DNA of 20,456 bases. Source: a virus. Every line of letters starts with the position of its first letter. Position 1 is the first letter of the stretch. Shown piece after piece: positions 2,065 through 14,790 of this stretch. The notes below the pieces were generated by a model, which was not told where the DNA came from, ran no database searches, and was given only the letters and a program-made list of their open reading frames with translations. The stretch is taken from positions 1 to 20,456 of the IMG/VR virus record IMGVR_UViG_3300037189_008850; one strand, given 5' to 3'. The position numbers and the translations under genes were made by a program.

Positions 2065-2289
2065 TTAGTAGTCCTCTCCACCAAAGTAACCATAATCTTC
2101 ATCGGTTCCCCAACCGGCTGATTCCATCGCGGAATCGTGATCGCCATCCATGTTATCATCCTCATAGACATCATCATTACCATCATACAAATACTCGGCA
2201 AAAAGAATATCACTAGGATCATGCTCAACAATCATATCATCATCCTCATAAGAGTTTTCGGGATCGAACAGGGGATCAGGGTGACTCAT
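2065..2289 (-). CDS. Hyperacidic small protein (74 aa), unknown
   Basis: First gene of a three-gene unit. ATG follows AAGGAG, with a near-perfect promoter just upstream (2316-2343). The product is dominated by Asp, Glu, Tyr and Gly (for example NSYEDDDMIVEHD and VYEDDNMDGDHD) and has almost no basic residues. Small phage proteins with this composition can be DNA mimics or inhibitors of host enzymes, but no homologue is recognised and that role is inference. Confidence 0.7.
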   Translation of the reverse strand: MSHPDPLFDPENSYEDDDMIVEHDPSDILFAEYLYDGNDDVYEDDNMDGDHDSAMESAGWGTDEDYGYFGGEDY

Positions 2290-2315
2290 AACTTTCTCCT
2301 TAGTGGTATGGATTC

Positions 2316-2343
2316 ATTATACAGGACAAATCGGGCCTGTCAA
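2316..2343 (-). promoter_or_regulatory. Consensus sigma-70 promoter
   Basis: On the minus strand TTGACA (2338-2343), a 16-bp spacer, then TATAAT (2316-2321). The TGA stop of the upstream 74-aa gene lies inside the -35 hexamer. Confidence 0.85.
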
Positions 2344-2564
2344 TCAATCTTTTCAAGAAGAATAAAAGATTTCTTAATCATATCGCCGGGAATAATGATA
2401 TCCCCTCGCGGCGAGTCAAAACGCATAAAGTTAAAACTGTAACTATTCTTCAAGAAGTTTAGCGTGTCCGTATATTCCAAATCGTTCAGTTCAACTACCG
2501 ATCCATAGACTGTGCCAAGGGGAGTTTCAAACACGGTACGATACTTATTCTTAATGTCTTCCAC
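2340..2564 (-). CDS. Hypothetical protein (74 aa), GTG start
   Basis: The reading frame starts with GTG at 2564, preceded by AAGGA at ideal spacing. That AAGGA overlaps the TAA stop of the gene before it, suggesting translational coupling. The product begins MEDIKNKYRTVFETPLGTVY and ends GDMIKKSFILLEKID, with no recognised domain. Its stop codon overlaps the -35 hexamer of the next promoter. Confidence 0.65.
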   Translation of the reverse strand: MEDIKNKYRTVFETPLGTVYGSVVELNDLEYTDTLNFLKNSYSFNFMRFDSPRGDIIIPGDMIKKSFILLEKID

Positions 2565-2573
2565 TTTTAATCC

Positions 2574-2753
2574 TTATGCAAATGAGGCTTCGGGGTAGAT
2601 TTCATCAAACATCACATCGGCCAAGCCCGTGACTTCGGCCCAATCCATCGGGTGACAGATAGGTTCGTCAATCGGCTCAACCATCGGCTCGACCATACCC
2701 TGCACAGCAAGGTCAGAAAGAACAGCGTTAACTTCATCAAGAGTCATTTTCAT
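2574..2753 (-). CDS. Small acidic protein (59 aa), unknown
   Basis: AGGAG lies three bases before the ATG at 2753 and nine bases before a second ATG at 2747, so the true start may be the second. The product has short repeats (MVEPMVEPIDEPI) and ends EIYPEASFA. It is the first gene of a two-gene unit driven by the promoter at 2774-2802. The family is not recognised. Confidence 0.65.
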   Translation of the reverse strand: MKMTLDEVNAVLSDLAVQGMVEPMVEPIDEPICHPMDWAEVTGLADVMFDEIYPEASFA

Positions 2754-2773
2754 TCTCTCCTAGGTATGCCCCT

Positions 2774-2802
2774 ATCCTACTATACTACATCGGCATTGTC
2801 AA
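2774..2802 (-). promoter_or_regulatory. Sigma-70-type promoter
   Basis: On the minus strand TTGACA (2797-2802), a 17-bp spacer, then TAGGAT (2774-2779). The spacer contains ATGCCGATGTAG, a sequence resembling that around several other promoters on this strand. Confidence 0.65.
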
Positions 2803-2842
2803 GAGGGGTTCTTCAATATTTCTCTTAAAAAGGAAAATGTTA

Positions 2843-2902
2843 TTTGGCACAAAAATCGCGGCCCCGCCCGTTTTTCCTAAATCCTTATCCTATATAGACT
2901 TA
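2843..2902. repeat. Intergenic repeat R2 (inverted iteron, G/C box, dyad)
   Basis: Contains TTTGGCAC (2843-2850), a partial inverted copy of the 17-bp iteron. A G/C box with CCGCCCGTTTTTCC follows, then a 25-bp dyad at 2878-2902 with arms TAAATC and GACTTA. The dyad ends exactly on the stop codon of the 68-aa gene. Confidence 0.6.
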
Positions 2903-3106
2903 GAAATACTTTCCCTTAATAATATCACCCTTAAAACTGATTTTAACATCATTTTTAATGGTAAAAAATGTCTCGTATGAGTCAAGGTAAAAACCTCTAT
3001 TCAAGAAGAAAGACGTTGCATCTGGAATGTTACTAAAAATGTAACACCGTTCCATTTCATAAGGAACATCAGCAGGATCGAATATAAATACATACTTGGT
3101 TTTCAT
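2900..3106 (-). CDS. Hypothetical protein (68 aa)
   Basis: ATG follows AGGAAAAG within the end of the upstream gene; the stop of that gene is one base away. The product begins MKTKYVFIFDPADVPYEMER and is rich in Phe and Tyr. It could be a compact alpha/beta domain, but no family is recognised. Second gene of a unit transcribed from 3428-3455. Confidence 0.65.
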   Translation of the reverse strand: MKTKYVFIFDPADVPYEMERCYIFSNIPDATSFFLNRGFYLDSYETFFTIKNDVKISFKGDIIKGKYF

Positions 3107-3107
3107 T

Positions 3108-3293
3108 TCAACTTTTCCTCATAGCGTGTCGCAGGTTGCTAAGAAATGGCTTATTGATAGTGGTTGTGGTGGTTGTGACGGTGTTATATGGATAGCAATC
3201 TAGTTCATCATAATCATACTGATAACAATCACTGTAATCGTAATCATCATCGTTAACGAAAAAGTAGTTATACCAATCCTTGAGAAAGTTCAT
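3108..3293 (-). CDS. Acidic Tyr-rich small protein (61 aa), unknown
   Basis: ATG is preceded by AAGGAAAACACA. The middle is packed with Asp and Tyr (VNDDDYDYSDCYQYDYDELD), followed by a run of six threonines and a basic C-terminus. No family is recognised. It has a long structured leader of about 130 nt between promoter and start, unlike its neighbours. Confidence 0.65.
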   Translation of the reverse strand: MNFLKDWYNYFFVNDDDYDYSDCYQYDYDELDCYPYNTVTTTTTTINKPFLSNLRHAMRKS

Positions 3294-3326
3294 TGTGTTT
3301 TCCTTCTACGTTGTATTGTGACCCCT

Positions 3327-3370
3327 AGCCTATTACTATTCGTGCCGATTGCGCCCGGCTTCGATAGGCT
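3327..3370 (-). promoter_or_regulatory. Structured 5' leader hairpin
   Basis: A 7-bp perfect outer stem (AGCCTAT/ATAGGCT) encloses a second 4-bp stem (GCCG/CGGC at 3344-3347 and 3356-3359). It lies in the leader between the promoter at 3428 and the gene starting at 3293. There is no T-run, so a terminator is unlikely; a regulatory or stabilising element is possible. Confidence 0.45.
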
Positions 3371-3376
3371 GCGATT

Positions 3377-3409
3377 TTATATGATACCGAAAGAGGCCGA
3401 ATCGGTCAT
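3377..3409 (-). CDS. Possible leader peptide (10 aa)
   Basis: A good Shine-Dalgarno sequence (ATAAGGAAAACG) precedes ATG at 3409, which opens only ten codons (MTDSASFGII) before TAA, just upstream of the leader hairpin. It may be an upstream regulatory ORF or the remnant of a decayed gene. The codons show no obvious attenuation signal. Confidence 0.3.
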   Translation of the reverse strand: MTDSASFGII

Positions 3410-3427
3410 CGTTTTCCTTATATCGAC

Positions 3428-3455
3428 ATTCTACACTCTAAACTTGTTTTGTCAA
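3428..3455 (-). promoter_or_regulatory. Consensus sigma-70 promoter
   Basis: On the minus strand TTGACA (3450-3455), a 16-bp spacer, then TAGAAT (3428-3433), followed by GTCGATATAAGG. The -35 hexamer contains the TGA stop of the 60-aa coiled-coil gene. Confidence 0.8.
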
Positions 3456-3634
3456 TCCCGCCCGCGAGACATTTCATGCTCTATGCGAGATATGTTCTCA
3501 AGAATCATTTCTATGGTGTTCTTGAGCCTATCATTTTCCTGCTCAAGTTCATTTATACGCCGACGCAGACTCCACATGGAATCTATGGTCTTCATAAGAT
3601 GAGAATGTGTTGCACAATCGTTATGGTTGCTCAT
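3452..3634 (-). CDS. Small coiled-coil protein (60 aa)
   Basis: The ATG at 3634 follows AAAGGG. Residues from about 20 on form a charged heptad-like helix (LRRRINELEQENDRLKNTIE), so a short dimeric coiled coil is likely. No DNA-binding or enzymatic motif is visible. It is the last gene of the unit and ends in the next promoter. Confidence 0.65.
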   Translation of the reverse strand: MSNHNDCATHSHLMKTIDSMWSLRRRINELEQENDRLKNTIEMILENISRIEHEMSRGRD

Positions 3635-3663
3635 TTTATACCCTTTCTCGCTGACAACGCTGA

Positions 3664-3729
3664 CTACCACATGATCCGGCCACTTTGGCCGAGACTACCC
3701 AGTTTGCTCAGACCGCCCAAACCTCCCAT
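3664..3729 (-). CDS. Possible Gly/Leu-rich peptide (21 aa)
   Basis: A short frame from ATG at 3729 encodes MGGLGGLSKLGSLGQSGR and four more residues. Only a weak ribosome site is present. The same frame is open further upstream, into the end of the 108-aa gene, so a frameshift extension of that gene is an alternative source. The regular GGLxxLGxLG composition is unusual, but coding is unproven. Confidence 0.25.
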   Translation of the reverse strand: MGGLGGLSKLGSLGQSGRIMW

Positions 3730-3751
3730 TTTGCCTATCTTACCAAAACCC

Positions 3752-4078
3752 CTAGTCCTCGTAGAATGCCGAGACTTCCTGCCCTTCCACGGCGAAAACT
3801 TCATACATTCCACGCAAAGCCTCCACCCTATCCCAACTACCGGGCTTGCCCACCTTAACAATCATGTTGTCCTCACCCCCACCATAGCGGGGATCGACCT
3901 TTTCGGCCTTGCTCTTACCAATATTCTTCAAAGCCTTACGATTAAACTTAAGAATCTTCTCACTCTTAATGGGGGTATATACCCCATCGGCCACGTTGGG
4001 CTGGTGAGGAATGGCAATCCCAACAAAACACATACGGGCTTGACGCTTGGCGTTTTCGATGATGGCAAACTTAGTCAT
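3752..4078 (-). CDS. Hypothetical protein (108 aa)
   Basis: ATG at 4078 follows AGGAAAAGGATT. The product begins MTKFAIIENAKRQARMCFVG; the middle is basic and the C-terminus acidic (VFAVEGQEVSAFYED). No domain is recognised. It lies downstream of two hairpins (4137-4151 and 4108-4120) that may reduce read-through from the preceding gene, and no strong promoter of its own was found. Confidence 0.65.
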   Translation of the reverse strand: MTKFAIIENAKRQARMCFVGIAIPHQPNVADGVYTPIKSEKILKFNRKALKNIGKSKAEKVDPRYGGGEDNMIVKVGKPGSWDRVEALRGMYEVFAVEGQEVSAFYED

Positions 4079-4107
4079 TTTGAATCCTTTTCCTATTGTG
4101 AAAAACT

Positions 4108-4120
4108 CAGTCTATCAGAC
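4108..4120 (-). terminator. Weak hairpin with T-run (candidate attenuator)
   Basis: Read on the minus strand, AGTCT-GAT-AGACT is a 5-bp hairpin followed by GAGTTTTT. It is weak, lies just upstream of the 108-aa gene, and is downstream of the stronger C/G hairpin at 4137-4151. Confidence 0.25.
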
Positions 4121-4136
4121 TTTCCCGCCGCCGAAA

Positions 4137-4151
4137 CCCCCACTTTGGGGG
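4137..4151 (-). terminator. C/G-rich hairpin, terminator-like
   Basis: On the minus strand CCCCCA-AAG-TGGGGG forms a perfect 6-bp hairpin followed by TTTCGG, three bases beyond the stop of the 70-aa gene. The T-tract is short, so termination may be partial or the hairpin may only protect the mRNA end. Confidence 0.45.
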
Positions 4152-4153
4152 AG

Positions 4154-4366
4154 TCAGGATACTCCCATCCAATCGGCATTCTCAAGACAATAATCGTAAA
4201 ACATTTCGTTCAAAACGTTAGCGTGATTCTTTTCGTTGATACGCTTGAACATACCGAAAAGGATGCACTCAGCGTAATAGCCTTTATCATCCATTCCGAT
4301 AGCACACTGGTGGGCTTCTTCGCCCCAAATCTGATTCTTAACGGAAATGTAATCTTTCTGGAACAT
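4154..4366 (-). CDS. Hypothetical protein (70 aa)
   Basis: The ATG at 4366 is chosen because AAAGG lies at proper spacing; an ATG five codons earlier overlaps the upstream stop. The product begins MFQKDYISVKNQIWGEEAHQ and contains YYAECILFGMFKRINEKNHA. The pattern resembles a small soluble alpha/beta protein. No family is recognised. Confidence 0.65.
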   Translation of the reverse strand: MFQKDYISVKNQIWGEEAHQCAIGMDDKGYYAECILFGMFKRINEKNHANVLNEMFYDYCLENADWMGVS

Positions 4367-4377
4367 TTTGTAACCTT

Positions 4378-4548
4378 TCAACCAAAAGCCTTGTGATTCG
4401 GATTCTTCTTCATTTCTTCAACTTTGCGAAGATGCTCACGGTATTCATCATCCAACTTCTGTTGAACTGAAACGTAACCATCACGATCATCACGGGAATA
4501 ATCGTAACCATCATCGGAACCTTTGTAACTAAACTTTCTCATCTTCAT
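4378..4548 (-). CDS. Charged small protein (56 aa), unknown
   Basis: The longer frame back to 4590 would overlap the promoter at 4567-4594, so the start is placed at ATG 4548 (or 4542), after AAGAAAGAGAGA. The product has an Asp/Tyr/Arg-rich first half (KGSDDGYDYSRDDRDGY) and a helical, Lys/Glu-rich end. No family is recognised. First gene of the unit immediately downstream of the 411-bp control region. Confidence 0.6.
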   Translation of the reverse strand: MKMRKFSYKGSDDGYDYSRDDRDGYVSVQQKLDDEYREHLRKVEEMKKNPNHKAFG

Positions 4549-4566
4549 TCTCTCTTTCTTATACCT

Positions 4567-4594
4567 TATATAGAGCAATCGCCGTGCCAATCAA
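4567..4594 (-). promoter_or_regulatory. Sigma-70-type promoter
   Basis: On the minus strand TTGATT (4589-4594), a 16-bp spacer, then TATATA (4567-4572). A copy of the 17-bp iteron (4575-4591) overlaps the spacer and -35, so an iteron-binding protein could block this promoter. Confidence 0.6.
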
Positions 4595-4662
4595 GAAATA
4601 TTCTGAAGTGGTGTTTTCCTCGGGAAAAACGCTATGCTTCAAGTCGTGCCTAGTTTTTGAGC

Positions 4663-4741
4663 GTAGCATTTTGCAACAGTGGTGTAGCATTTTGCTACGC
4701 ATAACTCGGCCTAAAACTAAGGTAGTGTAGCATTTTGCAAC
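4663..4741. repeat. Three 15-bp GTAGCATTTTGCWAC elements
   Basis: Copies lie at 4663-4677, 4684-4698 and 4727-4741, all in the same orientation. The middle copy is a perfect inverted repeat (GTAGC-ATTTT-GCTAC); the other two have one changed base (GCAAC). Start-to-start distances are 21 and 43 bp, close to two and four helical turns, so bound proteins would face the same side of the DNA. Confidence 0.75.
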
Positions 4742-4793
4742 GCCTTGCCTATCTTAACTGCCCATTATTCTAGCAGCACGATTTTTTATTCCC

Positions 4794-4912
4794 TTAAACA
4801 GTACTTCGATACGATCACATAAATAGCCGTAAGTCCTTATGTACAAAGGGTTTACGTCAAAAACGGGCCGCCCGATTTTTCCTAAGTCCTTATCCCATAA
4901 CGACTTACGTCA
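4794..4912. repeat. Composite intergenic repeat R3
   Basis: Order: TTAAACAG (4794), TCGATACGATCA (4806-4817), a 12-bp gap, a 25-bp dyad (4830-4854) plus CGTCA, a G/C box with T-run (about 4864-4880), and a second 25-bp dyad (4883-4907) plus CGTCA. The second dyad is the best in the family: TAAGTC and GACTTA arms, inner TTAT/ATAA pairs and one mismatch. On the plus strand CGGGCCGCCCGATTTTT looks like a small terminator. Confidence 0.75.
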
Positions 4913-4921
4913 TCTTTCAAC

Positions 4922-4994
4922 GCAAATCGTATGCCAAAGCCATAGCAGAGCAAACGGTGTGCCAATCACCGCTGCCTGCAAATGGTGTGCCAAA
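4922..4994. repeat. Three 17-bp iterons at exact 28-bp period
   Basis: Consensus GCAAAYSGTRTGCCAAW. Copies lie at 4922-4938, 4950-4966 and 4978-4994. The 11-bp spacers between copies are not conserved, so selection appears to act on the 17-bp motif. Single related copies occur at 4575-4591, 5691-5707 and 6801-6817, and a partial inverted one at 2843-2859. Confidence 0.8.
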
Positions 4995-5005
4995 GATTAT
5001 TTTTC

Positions 5006-5179
5006 TCAGGGATATTCCTCTTCCCCGTAAAAGTCATAATCGGCATCTTCTTCCTCTTCCATCCATTCCCCATCATCAAGGCCGGGGGTATAGTCTGGGT
5101 CTTCGTTGATTTCATCCCAACCAGCCATGATTTCCTCTTCGTTGATTTCGGTCATGTTGTAAGTAAAATCGTTGTTCAT
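5006..5179 (-). CDS. Hyperacidic small protein (57 aa), unknown
   Basis: ATG at 5179 follows AGGTG at suitable spacing; a TTG further up is unlikely. The product is extremely Glu/Asp-rich (GEWMEEEEDADYDFYGEEEY) with hardly any basic residue. Composition matches the other acidic proteins of this block, and DNA mimicry or inhibitor function is a guess. Second gene after the 41-aa gene. Confidence 0.65.
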   Translation of the reverse strand: MNNDFTYNMTEINEEEIMAGWDEINEDPDYTPGLDDGEWMEEEEDADYDFYGEEEYP

Positions 5180-5202
5180 TTGTTCACCTATAGGTTTAGT
5201 GT

Positions 5203-5328
5203 TCAACCGTTCATGTACCGAATCGCATCATCGGAGGTCTTGAAAGTCCCCATGAGCCTACGCTTGCCGTTGCCCATATCGCGGTAAACCTTATACTTCG
5301 AACCAACCACAACCAGAATCAGTGTCAT
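5203..5328 (-). CDS. Small basic protein (41 aa), unknown
   Basis: ATG at 5328 follows AAGGG. The product begins MTLILVVVGSKYKVYRDMGN and continues with GKRRLMGTF and a short C-terminal helix (SDDAIRYMNG). The beta-beta-alpha pattern resembles other small phage early proteins, including the 50-aa neighbour at 6127. No family is recognised. Promoter at 5356-5384. Confidence 0.6.
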   Translation of the reverse strand: MTLILVVVGSKYKVYRDMGNGKRRLMGTFKTSDDAIRYMNG

Positions 5329-5355
5329 TTGTTTTCCCTTACTTTCTATATCGGC

Positions 5356-5384
5356 ATTCTAGAGAGTGATTCTTGAAAATGCAA
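5356..5384 (-). promoter_or_regulatory. Sigma-70-type promoter
   Basis: On the minus strand TTGCAT (5379-5384), a 17-bp spacer, then TAGAAT (5356-5361), followed by GCCGATATAG. The upstream part TTGCATTTTCAAG is shared with the promoter at 5613-5640. Confidence 0.75.
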
Positions 5385-5394
5385 GCGGATATTT

Positions 5395-5586
5395 TTACGA
5401 TTTTTCGATTTCGTTGTATGAAACGAGCATCGTATCGCCCGCGTTGTAGGAAAACCTTGAACCCTTGAATGAAACCGCGTGATCTAGACGCAGTTCAAAG
5501 ATTCCACGATTATCGCATTCCCTTACGATATATCCCGAAACCTTTTTGATTTCATGGGCAGATCGGACGTTGCAAATCACTCTCAT
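5395..5586 (-). CDS. Hypothetical protein (63 aa)
   Basis: ATG follows AAAGGAAAGAAA and the promoter at 5613-5640. The product begins MRVICNVRSAHEIKKVSGYI and looks mostly beta-stranded (FELRLDHAVSFKGSRFSYNA), suggesting a small barrel-like domain, possibly nucleic-acid-binding. That is inference from the strand pattern only. Single-gene unit ending 11 bp before the next promoter. Confidence 0.65.
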   Translation of the reverse strand: MRVICNVRSAHEIKKVSGYIVRECDNRGIFELRLDHAVSFKGSRFSYNAGDTMLVSYNEIEKS

Positions 5587-5612
5587 TTTCTTTCCTTTTC
5601 TCTTATATCGAC

Positions 5613-5640
5613 ATTATACAGCCCATACTTGAAAATGCAA
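5613..5640 (-). promoter_or_regulatory. Sigma-70-type promoter
   Basis: On the minus strand TTGCAT (5635-5640), a 16-bp spacer, then TATAAT (5613-5618), followed by GTCGATATAAG as at other promoters in this block. Confidence 0.8.
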
Positions 5641-5690
5641 GCGAATAATCTTACGATTTTTATACTCACCTTTTATGAAATACGCCTACA

Positions 5691-5834
5691 GCAAATCTCA
5701 TGCCAAAAAATACTTTTTTCTTAAACAGAAGATCGATACGATCAGTAGATTAGTCCTAAGTCCTTACTACTAAAGGAGTTACGTCAAAAATGCCCCGCCC
5801 GATTTTTTGTAAGTCCTTATGCCACAACACTTTA
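5691..5834. repeat. Composite intergenic repeat R4
   Basis: Iteron GCAAATCTCATGCCAAA (5691-5707), TTAAACAG (5721-5728), TCGATACGATCA (5733-5744), a 12-bp gap, dyad a (5757-5781) plus CGTCA, a G/C box with T-run, and dyad b (5810-5834). The internal distances equal those of R3 and R5 where modules are shared: AAACAG module to TCGATACG 12 bp, and dyad to dyad 53 bp. The second half of dyad b instead forms CACAAC-ACTTTAC-GTTGTG. Confidence 0.8.
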
Positions 5835-5842
5835 CGTTGTGT

Positions 5843-5858
5843 CCCCCTATTGTGGGGG
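5843..5858 (-). terminator. C/G-rich hairpin downstream of 73-aa gene
   Basis: On the minus strand CCCCC-ACAATA-GGGGG forms a 5-bp hairpin about 50 bp after the stop of the 73-aa gene. No T-tract follows, so termination is uncertain. It resembles the hairpin at 4137-4151. Confidence 0.35.
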
Positions 5859-5908
5859 CCGCTTACCGCTGTGGGTGGGGTGATACCCTACTCATTGGGG
5901 GTGAACAT

Positions 5909-6130
5909 CTATTCAGTAGTAATAAACTTCACAACCGGAGGGCCGTAAGGTCTGCGAATGCGAACATTCCAAGTCTTACCATTACCACTCTCACGCTCAA
6001 CGGATTGAATCACTCCACTATCACCATCATGGAATGTAACAACCGCTCCATTCTTCATACAGTTCATGAGTTGAAGATAACTGTATGTAACAGTAGTGGA
6101 CAGGACGAATGCTTCACTATCGATATTCAT
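5909..6130 (-). CDS. Hypothetical protein (73 aa)
   Basis: ATG overlaps the previous stop (ATGA) and follows AAGGAAAAG. The product begins MNIDSEAFVLSTTVTYSYLQ. The second half contains VVTFHDGDSGVIQSVERESG and VRIRRPYGPPVVKF, a beta-rich pattern like small SH3-type domains. No family is recognised. Last gene of a three-gene unit from the promoter at 6458-6485. Confidence 0.65.
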   Translation of the reverse strand: MNIDSEAFVLSTTVTYSYLQLMNCMKNGAVVTFHDGDSGVIQSVERESGNGKTWNVRIRRPYGPPVVKFITTE

Positions 6131-6279
6131 TTCTTTTCCTTGTTCCCTGAGAGTTCAACTTCTTGAATATAGAAAGAGTTGTTTTTAACAAACTCCATTG
6201 CTTCTGCCTCAGTATAATGAGCAGATTCAATAAGCGTTCCAACCGCACTATCTTCCCGATACACTACCCAAATCTTCAT
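6127..6279 (-). CDS. Hypothetical protein (50 aa)
   Basis: ATG at 6279 follows AAGGAG. The product begins MKIWVVYREDSAVGTLIESA, then has a helix (TEAEAMEFVKNN) and a final strand (YIQEVEL), a beta-beta-alpha-beta arrangement. It overlaps the next gene by the ATGA junction. No family is recognised. Confidence 0.65.
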   Translation of the reverse strand: MKIWVVYREDSAVGTLIESAHYTEAEAMEFVKNNSFYIQEVELSGNKEKK

Positions 6280-6289
6280 GTTTCACTCC

Positions 6290-6439
6290 TTAGAGAATCG
6301 TACCATCGCCACGAATGCGATACATGATACCGCCGATACTGTATAGATAGATACCCTCGCCCATGTTCTGCACGAACGTAGCGGAATAACCGTGGTGAGC
6401 AGAGAGGCGGCGAATCGTGTTTTGGATTTGGCTAGTCAT
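6290..6439 (-). CDS. Hypothetical protein (49 aa)
   Basis: ATG at 6439 lies after AAGGAAAACAA and close to the promoter at 6458-6485. The 49-residue product begins MTSQIQNTIRRLSAHHGYSA and ends in a beta-hairpin-like part (YSIGGIMYRIRGDGTIL). First gene of a three-gene unit. The family is not recognised. Confidence 0.65.
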   Translation of the reverse strand: MTSQIQNTIRRLSAHHGYSATFVQNMGEGIYLYSIGGIMYRIRGDGTIL

Positions 6440-6457
6440 TTGTTTTCCTTTTCCCCT

Positions 6458-6485
6458 ATTCTACAGCCTAGTTTCTAGTTGTCAA
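6458..6485 (-). promoter_or_regulatory. Consensus sigma-70 promoter
   Basis: On the minus strand TTGACA (6480-6485), a 16-bp spacer, then TAGAAT (6458-6463). The stop TGA of the 66-aa gene lies inside the -35 hexamer. Confidence 0.8.
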
Positions 6486-6682
6486 GCCTTTGCGATAAGG
6501 TCAACGCTTACGATATCCTTAGCATTGAAACCCTGAGAACGCATGTACTTGTAGACCTGAGCATGATTGAAGCAACCGTATACCCGATAACGCTTACCAT
6601 TGACCATCGTAACCGCATGATCGTGAGTGGTAATCTTCGGAAGGGTTGCAAGCATTTCGTTTACGTTAGTGATCTTTTCCAT
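6482..6682 (-). CDS. Hypothetical protein (66 aa)
   Basis: First minus-strand gene left of the strand switch. ATG follows a GA-rich leader (AAGAGAGAAAGAAA) instead of a clear AAGGAG. The product begins MEKITNVNEMLATLPKITTH and contains VNGKRYRVYG, then NHAQVYKYMRSQGF. No family is recognised. Promoter at 6713-6740. Confidence 0.65.
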   Translation of the reverse strand: MEKITNVNEMLATLPKITTHDHAVTMVNGKRYRVYGCFNHAQVYKYMRSQGFNAKDIVSVDLIAKA

Positions 6683-6712
6683 TTTCTTTCTCTCTTTCTT
6701 TCTTATACCATC

Positions 6713-6740
6713 ATTATACCATACTTATCGGCGTTGTCAA
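6713..6740 (-). promoter_or_regulatory. Consensus sigma-70 promoter
   Basis: On the minus strand TTGACA (6735-6740), a 16-bp spacer, then TATAAT (6713-6718). It drives the leftward early block from the divergent control region. Confidence 0.85.
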
Positions 6741-6800
6741 GGGGCAATCTACAATATTTTTGGAATATAATCCCGTGCCAAACACCAAATATTCCACACA

Positions 6801-6923
6801 GCAAACCCTGTGCCAAATACATTATTCCCACTAAACAGAACATCGTATCGATCACCCTATTAAGGACATCGTATCGATCATATGATTAGTCCTAAGTCTA
6901 TATCCCACAAGGGTTTACATCAA
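6801..6923. repeat. Composite intergenic repeat R5
   Basis: Iteron GCAAACCCTGTGCCAAA (6801-6817), CTAAACAG (6831-6838), and two copies of CATCGTATCGATCA (6841-6854 and 6867-6880, 26 bp apart). After a 12-bp gap comes a dyad (6893-6917) plus CATCA. Iteron-to-AAACAG distance is 30 bp as in R4, and the 12-bp gap before the dyad is also identical. The G/C box after the dyad is in inverted orientation relative to R3 and R4. Confidence 0.75.
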
Positions 6924-7081
6924 ATCGGCGGGGCATGGGTGGGGGTTTTACTTTATAGAATGTTTTTTCTGCGATACGTCTAAAAGTTGAGGGTAGTTGA
7001 GACGCAATAACCGTTCAATATTTAATAAGTATTACCCAATCCACCCCAATCGGCCCCACTCGACACATTCGACCCTGTTAA

Positions 7082-7286: not shown

Positions 7287-8031
7287 AATTGTCAAGAATA
7301 TACCAAATAGCCCCGACCTATTACTATGCGGGGTAGAGGGTGTAGACCAAGCCAATTATCACTTTTCTGTAGCCCATTACGAGGGACATATATCAGAAAA
7401 GAATAATGTTCAAAACGTTTTCGGTAATCGCCCCTTCTTCTATAATATCTTATCTTTTCGTAATAATCAAGCATTTCGCTATGAATCTGGAACGGGCCAC
7501 TACTACGAATTTGAGGGTCAGCCCCGTTTTAAAAGACTCGCCCCTTTATTTACTGGCAAAAACTACGAACAACAACAAGTTGCAAAGCCCGACTCTATCT
7601 ACTACTGCTCCGAAGATAGCGTTAATGTTTTAGTTTCTATACCGCCAGATAATCTCAGACATTTACTATTTGATAGTAATTGCTTAGTAGTTTCTTTTGA
7701 TAAGTACAATCCTCTAGCAGTCAAAATAGAGGATAATTCATTCTTAGCCAGAGTGGGCGAGAACGATCTATCTAACGTGTCGTTCAGCGGCCCCGAGTTC
7801 GTAGATTTAGTAGTGAAGGCTTTGAGTAAACATACCAAACAGGTTTCTTTACAAAGTAGTAAGGTTGACTGTTCTAAACTATCAGTGAAACAACTGCAAC
7901 TAATTTCTGGATCAGCATCTAATGCTAAAAAAGGAACTTTAATATATGACGAGGAAAGTGATTGTGTTAAGTTTTACAATGGAAAGGAGTGGAAAGTACT
8001 AAAGTGGCAAAACGAAAATCAAGCGGAATGA
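7261..8031 (+). CDS. Hypothetical protein with fibre-like C-terminal motif (256 aa)
   Basis: The start at 7261 is preferred over an ATG seven codons earlier because AAGGAA lies seven bases before it. The protein begins MTKLNQAVEIVKNIPNSPDL. Most of the sequence has no recognised domain. The end, GTLIYDEESDCVKFYNGKEW, matches the motif G-x-(I/L)-x-Y-(D/N)-x(n)-Y-N-G-x-x-W seen repeatedly in phage fibre and virion-associated proteins. A structural or adhesion-related role is therefore possible, though its place at the head of the operon, next to a sigma-like gene, is not typical of a fibre. Confidence 0.7.
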   Translation: MTKLNQAVEIVKNIPNSPDLLLCGVEGVDQANYHFSVAHYEGHISEKNNVQNVFGNRPFFYNILSFRNNQAFRYESGTGHYYEFEGQPRFKRLAPLFTGKNYEQQQVAKPDSIYYCSEDSVNVLVSIPPDNLRHLLFDSNCLVVSFDKYNPLAVKIEDNSFLARVGENDLSNVSFSGPEFVDLVVKALSKHTKQVSLQSSKVDCSKLSVKQLQLISGSASNAKKGTLIYDEESDCVKFYNGKEWKVLKWQNENQAE

Positions 8032-8516
8032 AAATTCCCACTAATATGACAGAACAACAGGTTATAGATCAAATAAACATTGTCGTTAATAGGATATCGG
8101 CCCGGTATACTTTTCACGGATATACTGTTGATGATATAAAACAAGAGGCTTTCATGATATGTATGGATGCCCTTGATAGATACGATCATAACCGCCCCCT
8201 TGAAAATTTCTTATCAGTCCATCTTTCTAATCGTTTGAAAAACTTTGTGCGTGATAATTTCTATACAAAGGGCGAAGACGAGAAAAAGCGGGTACTAAAA
8301 CCAAGTAGTCTATCTAACGAAGAATTCATCCCTGTACAAAGTCATGAAAATGTTGAATATCTTGATGCAAAGTCCTTATCACTAAAAGTAGACGCCCTAT
8401 TGCCCGCCGAGTATCGATCAGACTATCTCAAGATGATTAACGACGTATATGTTCCTAAAAAGCGAAGAGAAGAAATAGTTGAGGTAATTAAGGAGTTGAT
8501 CAATGAAGAAGGGTAG
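8004..8516 (+). CDS. Sigma-70 region 2-like protein (T4 gp55-like late sigma factor)
   Basis: The 170-residue product contains a sigma region 2 pattern: RYTFHGYTVDDIKQEAFMIC, then an aromatic/acidic helix (ALDRYDHNRPLENFL) and NRLKNFVRDNFY. Length and layout resemble T4 gp55, which binds host RNA polymerase and recognises the -10 element of late promoters; no clear region 4 is seen. The final part is Lys/Glu-rich. The GTG start at 8004 is chosen from GGAAAG at 7-bp spacing. GTG 7989 or ATG 8028 are alternatives, and the gene overlaps the previous one in any case except the last few codons. Likely role: switching transcription to the virion operon that it heads. Homology is judged by eye. Confidence 0.7.
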   Translation: MAKRKSSGMKIPTNMTEQQVIDQINIVVNRISARYTFHGYTVDDIKQEAFMICMDALDRYDHNRPLENFLSVHLSNRLKNFVRDNFYTKGEDEKKRVLKPSSLSNEEFIPVQSHENVEYLDAKSLSLKVDALLPAEYRSDYLKMINDVYVPKKRREEIVEVIKELINEEG

Positions 8517-9288
8517 AATTTCAAAAGAAGAAGAACGCATCATCGGGCGGCTAGTAGACCACGTTACCGTAGAAGATATAGCCAAACAACTAAACCGCGA
8601 CGTTGAGAGCATTGATAATTTCGTTAAACGAAAATTCAAAATGGGCCTCTCTGATGTAGAGGCGGCGGCTTACTCACTAGAAGATCGCCCGTACTGGATC
8701 GAACTTGAGAACCAGTTCACTCCCACAGAACTAGAGTTATTCAAATATCACTGGTCGCGTATTATCTCTCAGTTTAAGGACGATGTATTCCCAACAGAAG
8801 AGTTGCAAGTTGTGGACGTTATCAAACTTGAAATACTCATGAATAGATGCCTTAAGAGTAATAAAGATAATCTCACTGAAATGACAGTGCTAGAAAAAAT
8901 GCTTGCAGAAGAACGGGCCGTAGATAAAGACCAACGTGATCAAGACTATATATTCAACCTAGAAAGACAAGTTGCCTCCTTACGGGCCTCCCAAGAATCT
9001 CTCAACCGTGACTATCGGGAGTTACAAACGAAAAAGGCCGCAATCCTTAGAGAGATGAAGGGAACCCGCGAACAGCGTATTAAACGCCTTGAGGATAGCA
9101 AGCAAAGTTTCACAGCATGGGTTGCTAGTCTAATTCAAGACCCCGAGAGGCTCAAGCGTTACGGTATAGAAATGGAAAAGATGAGACTTGCTATGGACAA
9201 AGAGCGAGAACGCTTAAGTGCTTTTCATCAGTACGAAGATGGACAGATAGATCAACCATTCTTAACTCCAGATACGGTGATGGAATGA
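8503..9288 (+). CDS. HTH and coiled-coil protein, small-terminase candidate
   Basis: ATG at 8503 follows AAGGAG and overlaps the previous gene by 14 bases. The N-terminal 45 residues look like a helix-turn-helix (KEEERIIGRLVDHVTVEDIA then QLNRDVESIDNFVKRKF). After a middle alpha-helical part, residues about 135-245 form a long charged coiled coil. An HTH followed by a helical oligomerisation segment, encoded upstream of TerL, is the pattern of a small terminase subunit that recognises phage DNA for packaging. A transcription regulator working with the sigma-like protein is the alternative. Seven genes separate it from TerL, more than usual. Confidence 0.55.
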   Translation: MKKGRISKEEERIIGRLVDHVTVEDIAKQLNRDVESIDNFVKRKFKMGLSDVEAAAYSLEDRPYWIELENQFTPTELELFKYHWSRIISQFKDDVFPTEELQVVDVIKLEILMNRCLKSNKDNLTEMTVLEKMLAEERAVDKDQRDQDYIFNLERQVASLRASQESLNRDYRELQTKKAAILREMKGTREQRIKRLEDSKQSFTAWVASLIQDPERLKRYGIEMEKMRLAMDKERERLSAFHQYEDGQIDQPFLTPDTVME

Positions 9289-10121
9289 AGAATACTGCTG
9301 TAGTAATTTATGTAGACAACGAAGAGAAATTTATCAAAGAATATAATTTCTTACACTATTGTTTTGTGCATAATAATTTATTTGATACTATAGACTTAGT
9401 TGTGTTTCACCACCCCGCCCTATCAAATCAAATTCATAATGATTGTATAAAGATTGAGTTTGAACCACTTTCTGGAAAACAACTATCGTATGGATTTTTA
9501 AATTCAGTAGAAATTTTTACACTTCCAGATGCTGAATTCATTTCACAATATTCAAACGTTCTTAGAACTGATTCCGATGTATTTCTAACACATAACTTTA
9601 AAGGTTGGAATGCTGATAATAAGTTTTATTGCGGTCGTGGCTCATATCATAATTCTATCACTATCACTAATAATCTTACCCAAATTGCTCACGATCTTAA
9701 TCTACGTTATACTCCTGTCAAAAATATAGGAAGTACTTGGTATGCTAATGGAAATACTATTATAGAAGTTGGCAAATTAACAACTACTATAAACAAATAC
9801 TTGCTTAACAACTATTTTCAAGAACGTGTTTTCAATTGGCCCGATTGGACATATGGCGTTTCTCTTCTTTATGCTGGAGAACTAGCAATCAATCACTTAT
9901 GCGATAACATAACCTTTACTGAATATCTTGATTACTTTAGTGATTCAACTAAAGATATTGATCAACACAAACATATTCATTGCTGGCATACAAATAATCG
10001 TTTTAGTAAGTTTGTTTTCAATGATGGACTATACAACACTATTGATCCCAATAGTTTAAATCAAAATAAAATAGATGAGTATTGTACTTATATCGCTTTA
10101 CAATCAAGGATTTCAAAATGA
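9285..10121 (+). CDS. Glycosyltransferase-like protein with DxD motif
   Basis: A 278-residue protein starting at an ATGA overlap. The N-terminal half alternates strands and helices (AVVIYVDNEEKFIKEYNFL, DLVVFHHPAL). It carries NVLRTDSDVFLTHNF with D96-x-D98, the classic metal/nucleotide-sugar-binding DxD of GT-A glycosyltransferases, next to a histidine-rich C-terminal part (DQHKHIHCWHTNNRF). The gene directly after it makes a GDP-sugar, so it may transfer that sugar or a derivative to phage DNA, virion protein or a host glycan. Assignment rests on DxD and fold pattern; the acceptor is unknown. Confidence 0.6.
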   Translation: MKNTAVVIYVDNEEKFIKEYNFLHYCFVHNNLFDTIDLVVFHHPALSNQIHNDCIKIEFEPLSGKQLSYGFLNSVEIFTLPDAEFISQYSNVLRTDSDVFLTHNFKGWNADNKFYCGRGSYHNSITITNNLTQIAHDLNLRYTPVKNIGSTWYANGNTIIEVGKLTTTINKYLLNNYFQERVFNWPDWTYGVSLLYAGELAINHLCDNITFTEYLDYFSDSTKDIDQHKHIHCWHTNNRFSKFVFNDGLYNTIDPNSLNQNKIDEYCTYIALQSRISK

Positions 10122-11209
10122 ACGCTCTAATATTCGGAATAACAGGACAAGATGGTAGTCACTTAGCAGACCTCTTACTAGAGAAAAACTATAAAGTAAT
10201 AGGAGTTACAAGAAGGTCAAGCACAAAAAACACACAAAGAATAAACCACCTCATCTCTAATGAGAAATTCGAACTAATTGAGGGCGACATTACGGATTCT
10301 AATAGTTTACTCCATATTTTAAGGAATACCGCGCATGTAGATGAAATCTACAATTTGGCGGCACAGTCCCATGTAGGAACATCTTTCAGTCAACCATCTT
10401 TGACTTTTGATGTAACTGGTAAAGGTTGTCTTAATATATTACAGACTATGGTTAACCTAAAAATGAATAATGTCAAGTTCTATCAAGCATCTTCTAGTGA
10501 AATGTTTGGTAAATCCTTCGATATTGATAGAAATGGCGTTAAATACCAAGATGAAAATACAAAGTTTTTACCTCAATCCCCGTATGCTATAGCAAAATGT
10601 GCAGCCCACTATGGCGTGAGATTATACCGCGAGGCTTATGGAATTCACGCTAGTTCTGGTATTCTGTTTAATCACGAAGGCCCGAGGCGTGGCGACCAAT
10701 TTGTAACCAAAAAGATAGTAAATTGGGTGGTTGATTTGATGTTTTTGTACCAAAATGGTACTGCTTATATAGATGAAACTAAATTTGACTTTACTGATTC
10801 TCATATCATATACGAAAATAACTCTATACCAAAACTAATGCTTGGGAATTTGGACGCTTATAGAGATTGGGGATATGCTGGAGATTATGTTGAGGCTATG
10901 TGGCTTATGCTACAGCAAGACAAACCAGACGATTATGTAATATGTACAGAAGAAACCCACTCTATTAGAGATTTACTAGATGCGGCTTTTGGATATTGTG
11001 GTATTTCTAATTGGAGCAATTTTGTTGGCATTGACCCACAATTTTTCAGACCAGCCGAAGTAGATTATTTATGTGGACGGTCTACAAAGGCTAGGACTAA
11101 GTTAGGATGGAGTCCAAAATATGACTTTAAGAGCCTTGTTCACTTAATGATGAAAGAGGGGGAATATGATAAACTACAGAATTATGATCGACATATCGAA
11201 CATCTATAG
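10118..11209 (+). CDS. gmd: GDP-mannose 4,6-dehydratase
   Basis: Converts GDP-D-mannose to GDP-4-keto-6-deoxy-D-mannose, the precursor of GDP-fucose, GDP-rhamnose and related sugars. Extended SDR family. The nucleotide-binding GITGQDGSHLADLL is at residues 7-20, NLAAQSHV at 79-86, and catalytic SSSEMFG at 125-131 with Y156-x3-K160 in SPYAIAK. Substrate signatures include NHEGPRRG (185-192; most homologues have NHESPRRG) and GNLDAYRDWGYAGDYVEAMW. The length of 363 residues is usual. ATG 10118 follows AAGGA and overlaps the glycosyltransferase stop (ATGA), so the two are coupled. A frame extending 12 codons further back is unlikely. Confidence 0.93.
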   Translation: MNALIFGITGQDGSHLADLLLEKNYKVIGVTRRSSTKNTQRINHLISNEKFELIEGDITDSNSLLHILRNTAHVDEIYNLAAQSHVGTSFSQPSLTFDVTGKGCLNILQTMVNLKMNNVKFYQASSSEMFGKSFDIDRNGVKYQDENTKFLPQSPYAIAKCAAHYGVRLYREAYGIHASSGILFNHEGPRRGDQFVTKKIVNWVVDLMFLYQNGTAYIDETKFDFTDSHIIYENNSIPKLMLGNLDAYRDWGYAGDYVEAMWLMLQQDKPDDYVICTEETHSIRDLLDAAFGYCGISNWSNFVGIDPQFFRPAEVDYLCGRSTKARTKLGWSPKYDFKSLVHLMMKEGEYDKLQNYDRHIEHL

Positions 11210-11414
11210 TAAAATAAGTCATTTATTCCTTAAGTCATATAACTCACCATTTCCTACTATTTTTATTACCTCTTCCGATCCAGACGAAGCCTGTTTTGAA
11301 GTGTTAAACGACTTAATTAAAATCATCATGAATCAAAATCCATCACTAGAAATGAGATTGGTGTGTAGACAGATAAGATTAAAGTCTAGAATAGATAAAA
11401 TATACCAACTATGA
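11166..11414 (+). CDS. Hypothetical protein (82 aa)
   Basis: ATG at 11166 has GAGGGGG just upstream and overlaps the end of gmd by 44 bases; ATG 11184 would shorten the overlap but lacks a ribosome site. The product begins MINYRIMIDISNIYSKISHL and has FPTIFITSSDPDEACFEVLN and a basic helical end. It joins the next gene by ATGA. No family is recognised. Confidence 0.6.
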   Translation: MINYRIMIDISNIYSKISHLFLKSYNSPFPTIFITSSDPDEACFEVLNDLIKIIMNQNPSLEMRLVCRQIRLKSRIDKIYQL

Positions 11415-11671
11415 GACGCAATTATGACGATCCAGCATATAAGAAGTTCCGAATAGATGTTCTTAAGCGTGATAAAAGACAGTGCAGAATGCCGGGATGT
11501 GGTAAACGCAAAAGACTAAATGTTCATCATATTAGAAAGTGGGCTTCTGCTCATTCTTTAAGATATGACGTTAGTAACGGAATAACCCTATGCAAATATT
11601 GTCATGACTCTATAAAAGGTAAAGAAATACATTACGAAGCACTATTTAAGGAAATTATCAATGGCATATAA
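11411..11671 (+). CDS. HNH endonuclease (86 aa)
   Basis: A compact HNH domain. Zinc ligands are C25/C30 and C61/C64, with H39-H40 in NVHHIRKW, N56 in VSNGITLC and the final H65. Many phages encode such an HNH protein near the terminase, where it can take part in DNA packaging; a mobile endonuclease or recombination nuclease is possible too. Overlaps its neighbours by 4 and 11 bases, so it appears integrated in the operon instead of recently inserted. Confidence 0.85.
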   Translation: MRRNYDDPAYKKFRIDVLKRDKRQCRMPGCGKRKRLNVHHIRKWASAHSLRYDVSNGITLCKYCHDSIKGKEIHYEALFKEIINGI

Positions 11672-12161
11672 AGAAGCCCCAAAGTTTACTGTTATCAAAG
11701 ACACTAGAGAGCAAGAAGGTTACTATTTCAGTGCCTTCAATGCTTGTGCTGGTATGGTAGAGGAAAAACTAGATACGGGCGATTATTCCATAAAGGGAAT
11801 GGAAGACAAAATATGTATAGAGCGAAAAGGTTGTGTAGAAGAACTAGCAGTTAATTTGGGTCAGAAAAAACACGCATTCTTAGCAGAAATAGAAAGAATG
11901 TCTACATTCCCACATAAGTTCATAGTTCTAGAGTTCTCATTAGAGGATTTAATCAAATTTCCAGATGAAACAAGAATTCCAGTTAAGAACAAGGCGTCCC
12001 TTAAGATAACTGGTAAATATATGCTTAAATGCTTGTTTGAATTCCAACTTTACAATAATGTCCAAATATTGTTCTGTGGAAACAAATACAATGCATTTTT
12101 AGCAGTAAGCAGCATACTAAAACGTGTTAATGAAATGTATACCATAGGGAGAAAAAAGTGA
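11661..12161 (+). CDS. ERCC4-domain nuclease
   Basis: A 166-residue protein with the XPF/ERCC4-type PD-(D/E)xK pattern: D14 with R16-E17 in IKDTREQEGY, then LDTGDYSI (residues 37-44) and IERKG with E54-R-K56. ERCC4 nucleases cut branched or flapped DNA. In a phage, roles could include resolving replication or recombination intermediates before packaging. No HhH domain follows, so partner proteins may provide DNA targeting. It sits between the HNH and the ClpP-like gene. The motif match is strong; the precise role is inferred. Confidence 0.8.
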   Translation: MAYKEAPKFTVIKDTREQEGYYFSAFNACAGMVEEKLDTGDYSIKGMEDKICIERKGCVEELAVNLGQKKHAFLAEIERMSTFPHKFIVLEFSLEDLIKFPDETRIPVKNKASLKITGKYMLKCLFEFQLYNNVQILFCGNKYNAFLAVSSILKRVNEMYTIGRKK

Positions 12162-12805
12162 TGGCGGAACCACCAGAACTACTTAAAGACTTCCACGACT
12201 ACGGGGCAAATATTGCCTCTAGAGAGATATTCTTACACAACCACTACGATACCGAAGACAACCAAAATCTAGGCGTAGAATATAGAATGGCTAATACCTT
12301 CATCAAAAACTTGAGGGCTTTAGACCTAAAGAGTAATGCTAACATAACTATACATTGTCACAGCATAGGTGGCGAATGGTCTGACGGCATGGCAATATAT
12401 GATGCTATTAAAATGTGTAGATCATATGTAACTATTATTATGTACGGCCAAGCAGAATCTATGAGTAGTATTTTTATGCAGGCTGCTGATTATAGATACA
12501 TGACCCCAAATTCTCACTTCTTATCTCATTACGGCAGTAGCGATATCAACACTGATTATCTTAGTGCTATGAATCAAGCGGATCATGAGAGAAGAACAGC
12601 GGACATTATGTTTAATATTTATGCAAATAGATGCGTAGATGGTAAGTTTTTCTATGAGAAGTTTGGTAAGAAACCAAGCGAAAAACAGGTCAAGCAGTAT
12701 TTGATAAGAAAACTAAAGTCTGGAGATTGGTATCTATCGGCAGAAGAGTCAGTATATTACGGTTTTGCTGACGCAATTTTAGACCACTGGCATTTCACAG
12801 AATGA
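12161..12805 (+). CDS. ClpP-like serine protease, candidate prohead protease
   Basis: A 214-residue ClpP/crotonase-fold protease. S100 lies in YGQAESMSSIFMQAAD (ClpP GQAxSM motif), H123 in SHFLSHYG and D189 in GDWYLSAEESVYYGFADAIL, giving the full catalytic triad. HCHSIGGEWSDGMAIYDAI matches the substrate/oxyanion region. Phage ClpP-like proteases commonly process capsid scaffolds, and that is the likely role here. It lies before TerL and not after the portal, where such proteases are usually found. The ATG at 12161 has AGGGAG nine bases upstream; GTG 12158 is an alternative start. Confidence 0.85.
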   Translation: MAEPPELLKDFHDYGANIASREIFLHNHYDTEDNQNLGVEYRMANTFIKNLRALDLKSNANITIHCHSIGGEWSDGMAIYDAIKMCRSYVTIIMYGQAESMSSIFMQAADYRYMTPNSHFLSHYGSSDINTDYLSAMNQADHERRTADIMFNIYANRCVDGKFFYEKFGKKPSEKQVKQYLIRKLKSGDWYLSAEESVYYGFADAILDHWHFTE

Positions 12806-14790
12806 AAAAAGACAAACTTAAAGTAATAGATGAAGCGTGGCTTGGTCTTGATGTTATTGATACAGACATTTTTAACCCAATGTCTATTCTCAATCCATCA
12901 GACGATGACTTTCATCTTAAATTATCGTGGTTAATGAGTAGGCCAGAATACTTTTCTTTCCTATGCAACGAAGTACTGAATATTCAGTTACTACCATCTC
13001 AATCATTAATCTTATATGAGTTATGGAATCGTAAGTTCCCAATGCTAGTTGGTAGCCGAGGACTAGGAAAATCATTCAAACTAGCACTATATGCAATTCT
13101 AAGAGGTATGATAATACCAAAAAGAAAGATAGTTATAGTTGGTGCTGCATTTAGACAGTCCAAAGTATTGTTTGATTATATGTCAACAATATGGAGAAAT
13201 GCCCCAATGCTTCGTGATATGTGTGATAGTGATAGCGGGCCAGTTAGTGCGCCAGATAGATGCATAATGAGAATAAATGAGAGCGTAATCACCTGTCTTC
13301 CTCTTGGTGATGGTCAAAAGATTAGAGGTCAACGTGCTAATGACATTATCGCTGACGAATTTGCATCTATTCCAAGAGATATTTTCGAAAACGTAGTTGC
13401 TGGTTTCGCGGCTGTTAGTGCTGACCCAGTTCAGAATGTAAAAAGAATGTCAGCAAAGAAGAAGGCGGCTGAATTAGGTCTAGACTTAGAGTTAGAAGAA
13501 GATAATCCAGAAGTTAAAGACAATCAAATCATTCTCTCTGGAACAGCATACTACGACTTTAATCACTTTTCTACATATTGGAAAAAGTGGAAGTCTATTA
13601 TTAAAAGTCAAGGCAATATAGCAAAACTTACAGAAGTATTCAATGGAGAAGCACCACCAGAGACTTTTGATTGGCGTCAATATTCAATCATAAGAATTCC
13701 ATACGAACTACTTCCTAACGGCTTTATGGATGCAGATCAAGTCGCAAGATCAAAAGCCACGGTTCATACTGGTATTTATCAGATGGAATATGGGGCTTGT
13801 TTCACAAGAGATAGTCAGGGATTCTTTAAAAGATCATTAATTGAGTCATGCGTTGTAGGAAATAATGAGTTTCCAATCTTGGACTCTAAGGGAGAATTGA
13901 TCAAATTTGAAGCAACCCTCATTGGCGATCCAAATAAACGATATGTATTCGGGGTTGACCCAGCCTCAGAAGTAGACAATTTCAGCATTGTAGTCATAGA
14001 GATTGATAGCGATCATAGAAGAATAGTTCATTGTTGGACAACCACTAGACAAGAACATAAAGAACAGGTTAAGAGGGGATACGCCCACGAAACTGATTTC
14101 TATGCATATTGTGCTAGAAAGATTAGAAACTTAATGAAACTATTTCCATGTATTCATATTGCTATGGACGCTCAAGGTGGTGGTATAGCAGTTATGGAAT
14201 CATTACATGATAAGGATAAATTAAAAGAGGGCGAATTACCAATCTGGCCCGTTATTGATAACGATAAGCCAAAAGATACTGACGGCGAAAGAGGTTTGCA
14301 TATATTAGAAATGTGCCAATTTGCTAAATATGAGTGGCTATCAGAGTCAAACCACGGTATGAGAAAAGACTTTGAAGATAAAGTTCTACTATTCCCGTTC
14401 TTTGACTCTATTACTCTTGGACTATCAAGTTCTGAGGACGGTATTAAAAACAGAACATTTGATACTTTAGAAGAGTGCGTTATGGATATTGAAGAACTAA
14501 AAGACGAGTTGGCTATGATTCAAATGACGCAGACCGCCAACGGTAGAGATAGATGGGATACTCCAGAAGTAATTGTTGGAACTGGCAAAAAGAGTAAGGT
14601 TAGAAAAGACCGATATTCGGCACTTTTGATGGCTAATATGGCAGCAAGAATATTACATAGAACTCCAACAAAAGCAGAGTATCAGTTTTACGGAGGATTT
14701 GCAACCGGCGGGCATCAGTCAGAAAAAATTGAAGAAGATATGTATATTGCCCCAAGTTGGTTCTCTGAAAAAATGAAAGATGTGTATTGA
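12802..14790 (+). CDS. terL: Terminase large subunit
   Basis: The 662-residue packaging motor. The N-terminal ATPase has Walker A GSRGLGKS (84-91) and Walker B DIIADE (181-186, catalytic E186). The C-terminal RNase H-like nuclease has D386 in VFGVDPAS, D456 in IAMDAQGGG and D603 in KDRYSALL. An insertion at about 216-240 (charged, KKKAAELGLDLELEEDNPEV) lies between the two domains. It would power DNA entry into the prohead and cut the concatemer. Start overlaps the protease stop (ATGA) without a clear ribosome site, so translation is probably coupled. Longer than many terminases, but all key residues are present. Confidence 0.95.
   Translation: MKKDKLKVIDEAWLGLDVIDTDIFNPMSILNPSDDDFHLKLSWLMSRPEYFSFLCNEVLNIQLLPSQSLILYELWNRKFPMLVGSRGLGKSFKLALYAILRGMIIPKRKIVIVGAAFRQSKVLFDYMSTIWRNAPMLRDMCDSDSGPVSAPDRCIMRINESVITCLPLGDGQKIRGQRANDIIADEFASIPRDIFENVVAGFAAVSADPVQNVKRMSAKKKAAELGLDLELEEDNPEVKDNQIILSGTAYYDFNHFSTYWKKWKSIIKSQGNIAKLTEVFNGEAPPETFDWRQYSIIRIPYELLPNGFMDADQVARSKATVHTGIYQMEYGACFTRDSQGFFKRSLIESCVVGNNEFPILDSKGELIKFEATLIGDPNKRYVFGVDPASEVDNFSIVVIEIDSDHRRIVHCWTTTRQEHKEQVKRGYAHETDFYAYCARKIRNLMKLFPCIHIAMDAQGGGIAVMESLHDKDKLKEGELPIWPVIDNDKPKDTDGERGLHILEMCQFAKYEWLSESNHGMRKDFEDKVLLFPFFDSITLGLSSSEDGIKNRTFDTLEECVMDIEELKDELAMIQMTQTANGRDRWDTPEVIVGTGKKSKVRKDRYSALLMANMAARILHRTPTKAEYQFYGGFATGGHQSEKIEEDMYIAPSWFSEKMKDVY

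Follow-up and report, generated by a model that had tools for sequence, protein, structure and literature searches.

Organization of the packaging operon

The window, i.e., the whole stretch of 20,456 nucleotides that was analysed, matches positions 1691-22147 of an IMG/VR contig of 145,171 bases (G001, the 145-kb contig below) with 99.995% identity. In the ORF reading of the window, every ORF from 7989 to 14790 overlaps its neighbour, and all the genes named in this section lie on the + strand. The series opens with a sigma-70 region 2-like protein (7989-8516; Pfam Sigma70_r2, E 8e-6), whose gene is kept upstream of the following one in relatives. Heading the packaging operon, this protein may be a late sigma factor. 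The next gene (8503-9288) codes for a TerS candidate with an HTH and a long coiled coil in its AlphaFold2 model, and shows 70-90% identity across 25 relatives. The top PDB match of this model is the HK97 TerS, with a probability of 0.99 but an E-value of 0.26; a profile search gave no TerS family match and the viral fold library no significant one. On the strength of the model, the assignment as TerS is plausible. Homology between close relatives ends at the 3' end of this gene, which forms the left border of a hypervariable slot.

In the window, the slot is occupied by a gene for a DUF7164 protein, a predicted GT-A-type glycosyltransferase (9285-10121), and is followed by the gene of a GDP-mannose 4,6-dehydratase (Gmd; 10118-11209). 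The start of the former overlaps the preceding stop by ATGA at 9285-9288, and that of Gmd overlaps the glycosyltransferase stop by ATGA at 10118-10121. An 82-aa ORF (11166-11414), an HNH endonuclease (11411-11671; Pfam HNH, E 2e-8), an ERCC4-type nuclease (11661-12161; phrog_3490, E 3e-16), and a ClpP-type head maturation protease (12158-12805; phrog_94, E 1e-23) separate Gmd from the large terminase TerL (12802-14790; phrog_2, E 1e-22). The 82-aa ORF shares about 44 nt with the 3' end of Gmd and has no family match; it also follows Gmd in relatives (27-87% identity), and this constancy suggests that it is a real protein. An earlier note on this DNA had placed a glycosyltransferase-like protein and Gmd between putative TerS and TerL genes, and this arrangement was confirmed by the intact ORFs, the ATGA overlaps, and the phrog_2 match of TerL.

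The overlapping operon points to late expression of the locus. Sigma-70 promoters within the operon were not in excess of those in shuffled sequences. The leftward early region contains repeats of 38-118 nt (1388-6929), and a perfect sigma-70 promoter match is located at 6740-6713 on the - strand; the repeats and this match are perhaps early promoters.

Gmd as a core gene of an uncultured clade

Judged by its sequence, the product of 10118-11209 is unmistakably a GDP-mannose 4,6-dehydratase. The protein has 363 aa from its ATG and matches GDP_Man_Dehyd (PF16363) with an E-value of 2e-111 and 373 bits, against a curated cut-off of 27. Its best solved relative is 1n7g, a GDP-D-mannose 4,6-dehydratase (E 2e-94). 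The NAD(P)-binding motif GxTGQDG is present as GITGQDG, together with SSSEMFG and YAIAK, and the catalytic region (10493-10597) comprises S126-S127-E128 and Y156-x3-K160. Both SSSEMFG and YAxxK are intact in all 51 full-length copies from the clade. The motif NHEGPRRG (residues 185-192; 10670-10693), described as atypical in the earlier note, proved to be normal here, with 46 occurrences among the 51 full-length copies; the arginine position is altered in two copies, and three members (L069, L070, and L072) carry NHESPRRG, which is the usual form of the motif and differs from NHEGPRRG at no catalytic residue. The solved GMD-like relative 5uzh, with NHESIRRG, departs from the motif too, so that NHESPRRG is not strictly defining for Gmd. 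The idea that NHEGPRRG marks a changed catalysis was rejected, as this form prevails in the clade and the catalytic residues are unaltered. Most clade copies also have a loop insertion after FVTKK, which is absent from L065, L066, and L073.

IMG/VR contains 423 relatives of the window TerL, and another query from the same clade gave at least 600 matches. Among cultured phages, the best TerL matches are below 30% identity and none is close; the gene after TerL and one protein of the structural region found no match among 50,697 phage records. Gmd lies at exactly the same place in 44 of 44 loci of the first scan and in 10 of 10 new ones of the second, that is, in 54 relatives, counting those that span the TerS candidate to HNH and including some near-identical contigs. 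As the relatives were picked by TerL similarity, this synteny holds for the clade and not beyond it. Throughout the sampled clade, Gmd belongs to the syntenic core. Clade copies share about 51-70% identity with that of the window, and this identity tracks that of TerL (Spearman 0.56, Mantel p 0.001). With dN/dS values of 0.05-0.09, Gmd is under purifying selection in the clade.

A hypervariable slot beside Gmd

Between the TerS candidate and Gmd, the length of the joint varies from 9 to 3601 bp, with 40 of 44 loci above 300 bp; from Gmd through the gene that follows TerL, the joints are constant and close to zero, with an insert in one of the 44 loci. The slot proteins group into 33 clusters. 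Transferases over Pfam cut-offs include Glycos_transf_2, Glyco_transf_6, 17, 25, 29 and 92, and Gly_transf_sug. The glycosyltransferase families in relatives (GT2, 6, 17, 25, 29, 32, and 92) are unrelated to the window enzyme. Methyltransf_24/TylF, Methyltransf_11/23/25, Sulfotransfer_2, and a cytidylyltransferase also exceed their cut-offs, and 8 of the 33 clusters had no Pfam match (two clusters were left out of the scan). The family-matched content of the slot consists almost wholly of glycan-type enzymes. Inserts at other joints are of the same kind: an exostosin GT47 gene lies between the 82-aa ORF and HNH in L083, where the slot is nearly empty, and in L122, where the slot is not covered, and a Methyltransf_24 gene precedes the TerS candidate in L078.

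The slot can also be almost empty with Gmd kept (L014, L015, L073, L083, L125, L128, L130, L140, and L141), and this persistence indicates that Gmd is useful without slot enzymes. Fast turnover and empty slots would suit the view of Gmd and its neighbours as passenger morons, linked by chance and without a specific virion role. Such a view is very improbable given the universal presence of Gmd in the sample at a single place, its low dN/dS, and the nearly exclusive glycan-type nature of the family-matched inserts.

Among 64 distinct slot proteins, 63 fall under the transmembrane hydropathy threshold, and no membrane flippase- or polymerase-like protein was found by hydropathy in this set. The slot enzymes are therefore predicted to be soluble, unlike a serotype-converting (Gtr/O-antigen) module. 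Their solubility and the lack of such membrane proteins count against the proposal that the module alters the host surface (LPS, capsule, or another wall glycan) and so blocks superinfection or the attachment of progeny to debris, as has been suggested for LPS genes in large cyanophages. The proposal, the main rival of the virion reading, is rather unlikely, also in view of the position of the genes inside the packaging operon and of the little benefit that a late surface change would bring before lysis. It draws support from cyanophages such as P-SSM2, which cluster gmd with SDR and glycosyltransferase genes; these clusters have been interpreted as cell-surface modification (PMC9602691). The Gmd of the T4-like cyanophages (P-SSM2, S-SCSM1, and DSL-LC03) shares about 46% identity with that of the window and is likewise accompanied by glycosyltransferases. 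However, it carries NHESPRRG instead of NHEGPRRG, and in the records compared cyanophage gmd is not beside the terminase and comes with further SDR genes, GDP-fucose synthase among them (PMC9602691). In two cyanophage records, gmd adjoins a second sugar enzyme, unlike here, a further point against the host-surface proposal.

Cassette turnover and recombination

Pairs of close relatives reveal how the slot changes. In L042 and L046, TerL and the TerS candidate are 98% identical and all four slot genes are unrelated. At the nucleotide level, homology breaks off no more than about 15 nt from either slot border, and Gmd dS is 1.1 versus 0.27-0.28 in flanking genes. The same pattern occurs in L028 and L031, with one slot gene each. 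In L010 and L012, dS is 0.28 for Gmd versus 1.5-2.0 in the flanks, and a methyltransferase in common is 97% identical; Gmd has thus moved together with part of the cassette, which ties it to the cassette by recombination. Such a link is as expected if both serve one pathway. The slot cassette is swapped rapidly by recombination while Gmd stays in place. With the cassette exchanged in this way and Gmd retained, close relatives should differ in their sugar pattern.

The DUF7164 glycosyltransferase

The slot protein of the window has 278 aa and matches Pfam DUF7164, a family without a named function, at E 1.3e-53 and 182 bits (cut-off 27). A DxD motif (D96-S-D98, within RTDSD; 9570-9578, + strand) follows the predicted beta strand 91-94. 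D96 and D98 are invariant in the four homologues aligned, i.e., the window protein, two Bacillaceae proteins (L097 and L098), and one other viral protein (L104). The sequence found no match among solved structures. Its AlphaFold2 model (mean pLDDT 72, pTM 0.77, with a poor C-terminal part) gave 83 PDB matches at E <= 0.001 in Foldseek; the top ones listed are mostly GT-A folds, with TM-scores of about 0.5 or less, and include blood-group GT6 enzymes, LgtC, glycogenin, and the PBCV-1 capsid glycosyltransferase. According to the model, the DUF7164 protein is a GT-A-type glycosyltransferase with a predicted activity.

Among the loci compared, a DUF7164 protein occurs at the slot position only in the contig of the window itself. 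The glycosyltransferase and Gmd, treated as a pair in the earlier note, are consequently no unit. Gmd is present in 54 of 54 loci and the glycosyltransferase at this place in the window phage only; co-inheritance of the two was rejected for this reason. The alternative that related phages have the pair elsewhere, newly inserted, fails for Gmd, which is core and syntenic, and is half true for the glycosyltransferase, which belongs to the slot. The more interesting feature is found in the surroundings of the pair, where a conserved deoxysugar gene is flanked by a hypervariable glycan cassette.

The DUF7164 proteins of Rossellomorea and Ectobacillus (Bacillaceae) share 41-42% identity with the window enzyme and have the DxD and HIHCWHTNN motifs in common with it. 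They are encoded in chromosomal loci beside polysaccharide or sulfation genes, whereas the window gene is part of a phage operon; this chromosomal context is a further point in favour of host-surface modification. The other viral contig encodes a fusion of DUF7164 and sulfotransferase (Sulfotransfer_4) domains (L104:850-2223), and the fusion gene lies between two other likely glycosyltransferase genes.

Completion of the sugar and other glycan genes

The 145-kb contig contains one PF01370 match, which is Gmd itself, and neither the GDP-fucose synthase nor the rhamnose reductase that the earlier note proposed to look for elsewhere in the genome was found in it. A second deoxysugar SDR is missing from 10 of 11 long records, this contig included, although the records are perhaps incomplete. 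A GDP-perosamine branch via a DegT aminotransferase was rejected, since this enzyme is absent from the 145-kb contig and was found in only one (G033) of six records. Completion of the sugar must fall to the host, to a phage enzyme that escaped recognition, or to Gmd itself through a reductase activity. A precedent for the last route is the GMD of chlorovirus PBCV-1, which has reductase activity and needs no second enzyme to yield GDP-D-rhamnose (PMC4691112, PMC9415975).

A second glycan locus is located at about 71,474-84,617 on the - strand of the 145-kb contig (L088/L089), with several GT4 genes, three FkbM methyltransferases, and a DUF6564 protein. Three other long records share the GT4 pair beside the DNA polymerase of this contig, at 51-70% identity, and a fourth has GT4 genes resembling them.

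The closeness of these GT4 genes to the DNA polymerase and of the module to the terminase would be in line with a sugar attached to phage DNA ahead of packaging, giving hypermodified bases, the variable enzymes serving to resist different restriction systems. A DNMK-type nucleotide kinase in the 145-kb contig points the same way, and some phage glycosyltransferases are known to glycosylate DNA, according to reference 46 as cited in PMC12619734. Such a role is nevertheless improbable. A PF00303 thymidylate-synthase-family hydroxymethylase is missing from seven long records (the control was positive in nine genomes), which makes DNA modification less likely. Searches for the Tet/JBP and HMUDK families (PF12851 and PF18723), run without a positive control, found neither. 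Sulfotransferases and O-methyltransferases of the TylF type are not known as usual modifiers of DNA.

A proposed virion glycan module

The best explanation, to which a probability of roughly 55% is assigned, is that the locus functions late in infection as a module for glycan modification of a virion protein, with a conserved deoxysugar and with interchangeable decorations provided by the slot. The modification genes sit within the packaging operon, as expected of phage virion-glycosylation loci. The lack of a second deoxysugar SDR in 10 of 11 long records, the nearly empty slots that still adjoin Gmd, and the eight slot clusters free of Pfam matches count against this explanation. By homology, Gmd would convert GDP-mannose to GDP-4-keto-6-deoxymannose. 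The next step, to a GDP-6-deoxyhexose, would be carried out by a host reductase or, given a reductase activity like that of the PBCV-1 GMD, by Gmd itself. Soluble slot enzymes could build and cap the glycan on the virion protein during assembly, i.e., one DUF7164 GT-A enzyme here and other glycosyltransferases, O-methyltransferases, and sulfotransferases in relatives. The conserved GT4 enzymes encoded beside the DNA polymerase probably join in building the glycan. Virion modification by a late deoxysugar, as the earlier note had favoured it, remains the best reading of Gmd in the packaging operon, apart from the assumption that the glycosyltransferase and Gmd form a unit. The acceptor is presumably a virion protein, by analogy with known systems; location in the packaging operon alone is no proof of it. 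A phage-tail-repeat protein is encoded soon after the packaging genes (17322-20456), and its downstream part contains about 27% Ser/Thr. This protein is a possible candidate acceptor of the glycan.

A close parallel is found in PBCV-1, whose GMD feeds capsid glycans (PMC4691112, PMC9415975). As in the clade, a virus-encoded Gmd is kept through the group together with strain-variable glycosyltransferases (PMC4691112, PMC9415975), and one of the folds matched by the window enzyme is that of the PBCV-1 capsid glycosyltransferase. PBCV-1 is, however, a eukaryotic virus that also encodes a GDP-fucose synthase, whereas the clade consists of bacterial phages. Its glycan has been proven on Vp54, and that of the clade is putative. 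In Corndog, of the Cluster O mycobacteriophages, an O-methyltransferase and glycosyltransferases lie between portal and protease (PMC4351075). As in the clade, glycan-type enzymes are thus placed within an operon for virion structure and assembly, and capsid modification has been proposed (PMC4351075). The position is different, and the part of PMC4351075 concerned with these genes names no Gmd and describes no hypervariable slot. A literature search found no description of the packaging-operon arrangement of Gmd plus slot.

These observations tentatively suggest a phage "serotype locus", in which a fixed deoxysugar gene and core glycosyltransferases would provide a conserved glycan, and a recombining cassette of glycosyl-, methyl-, and sulfotransferases would give each lineage its own pattern of virion sugars. 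If true, an O-antigen-like diversification would operate in a bacterial virus of a widespread uncultured clade. Phage virion glycans are known from few isolates, and their occurrence in a clade of hundreds of environmental contigs would make the virion sugar coating a general, diversifying trait. Near-identical phages with different slots would offer a natural series for studying adsorption, grazing, decoys, and host defence. Gmd would here be no stray auxiliary metabolic gene, contrary to that view.

Additional features of the 145-kb contig

Next to the second glycan locus, DNA polymerase III alpha (84,954-88,855; L089) appears to be split into two ORFs that enclose a 226-aa ORF, possibly a mobile element or a genuine split gene. 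The Pfam tally of the contig also comprises NAPRTase, the N-domain of PRPP synthetase, IMPDH, ThyX, dUTPase, RlaP, and PhoH, which by their family assignments represent a putative NAD and nucleotide salvage set.
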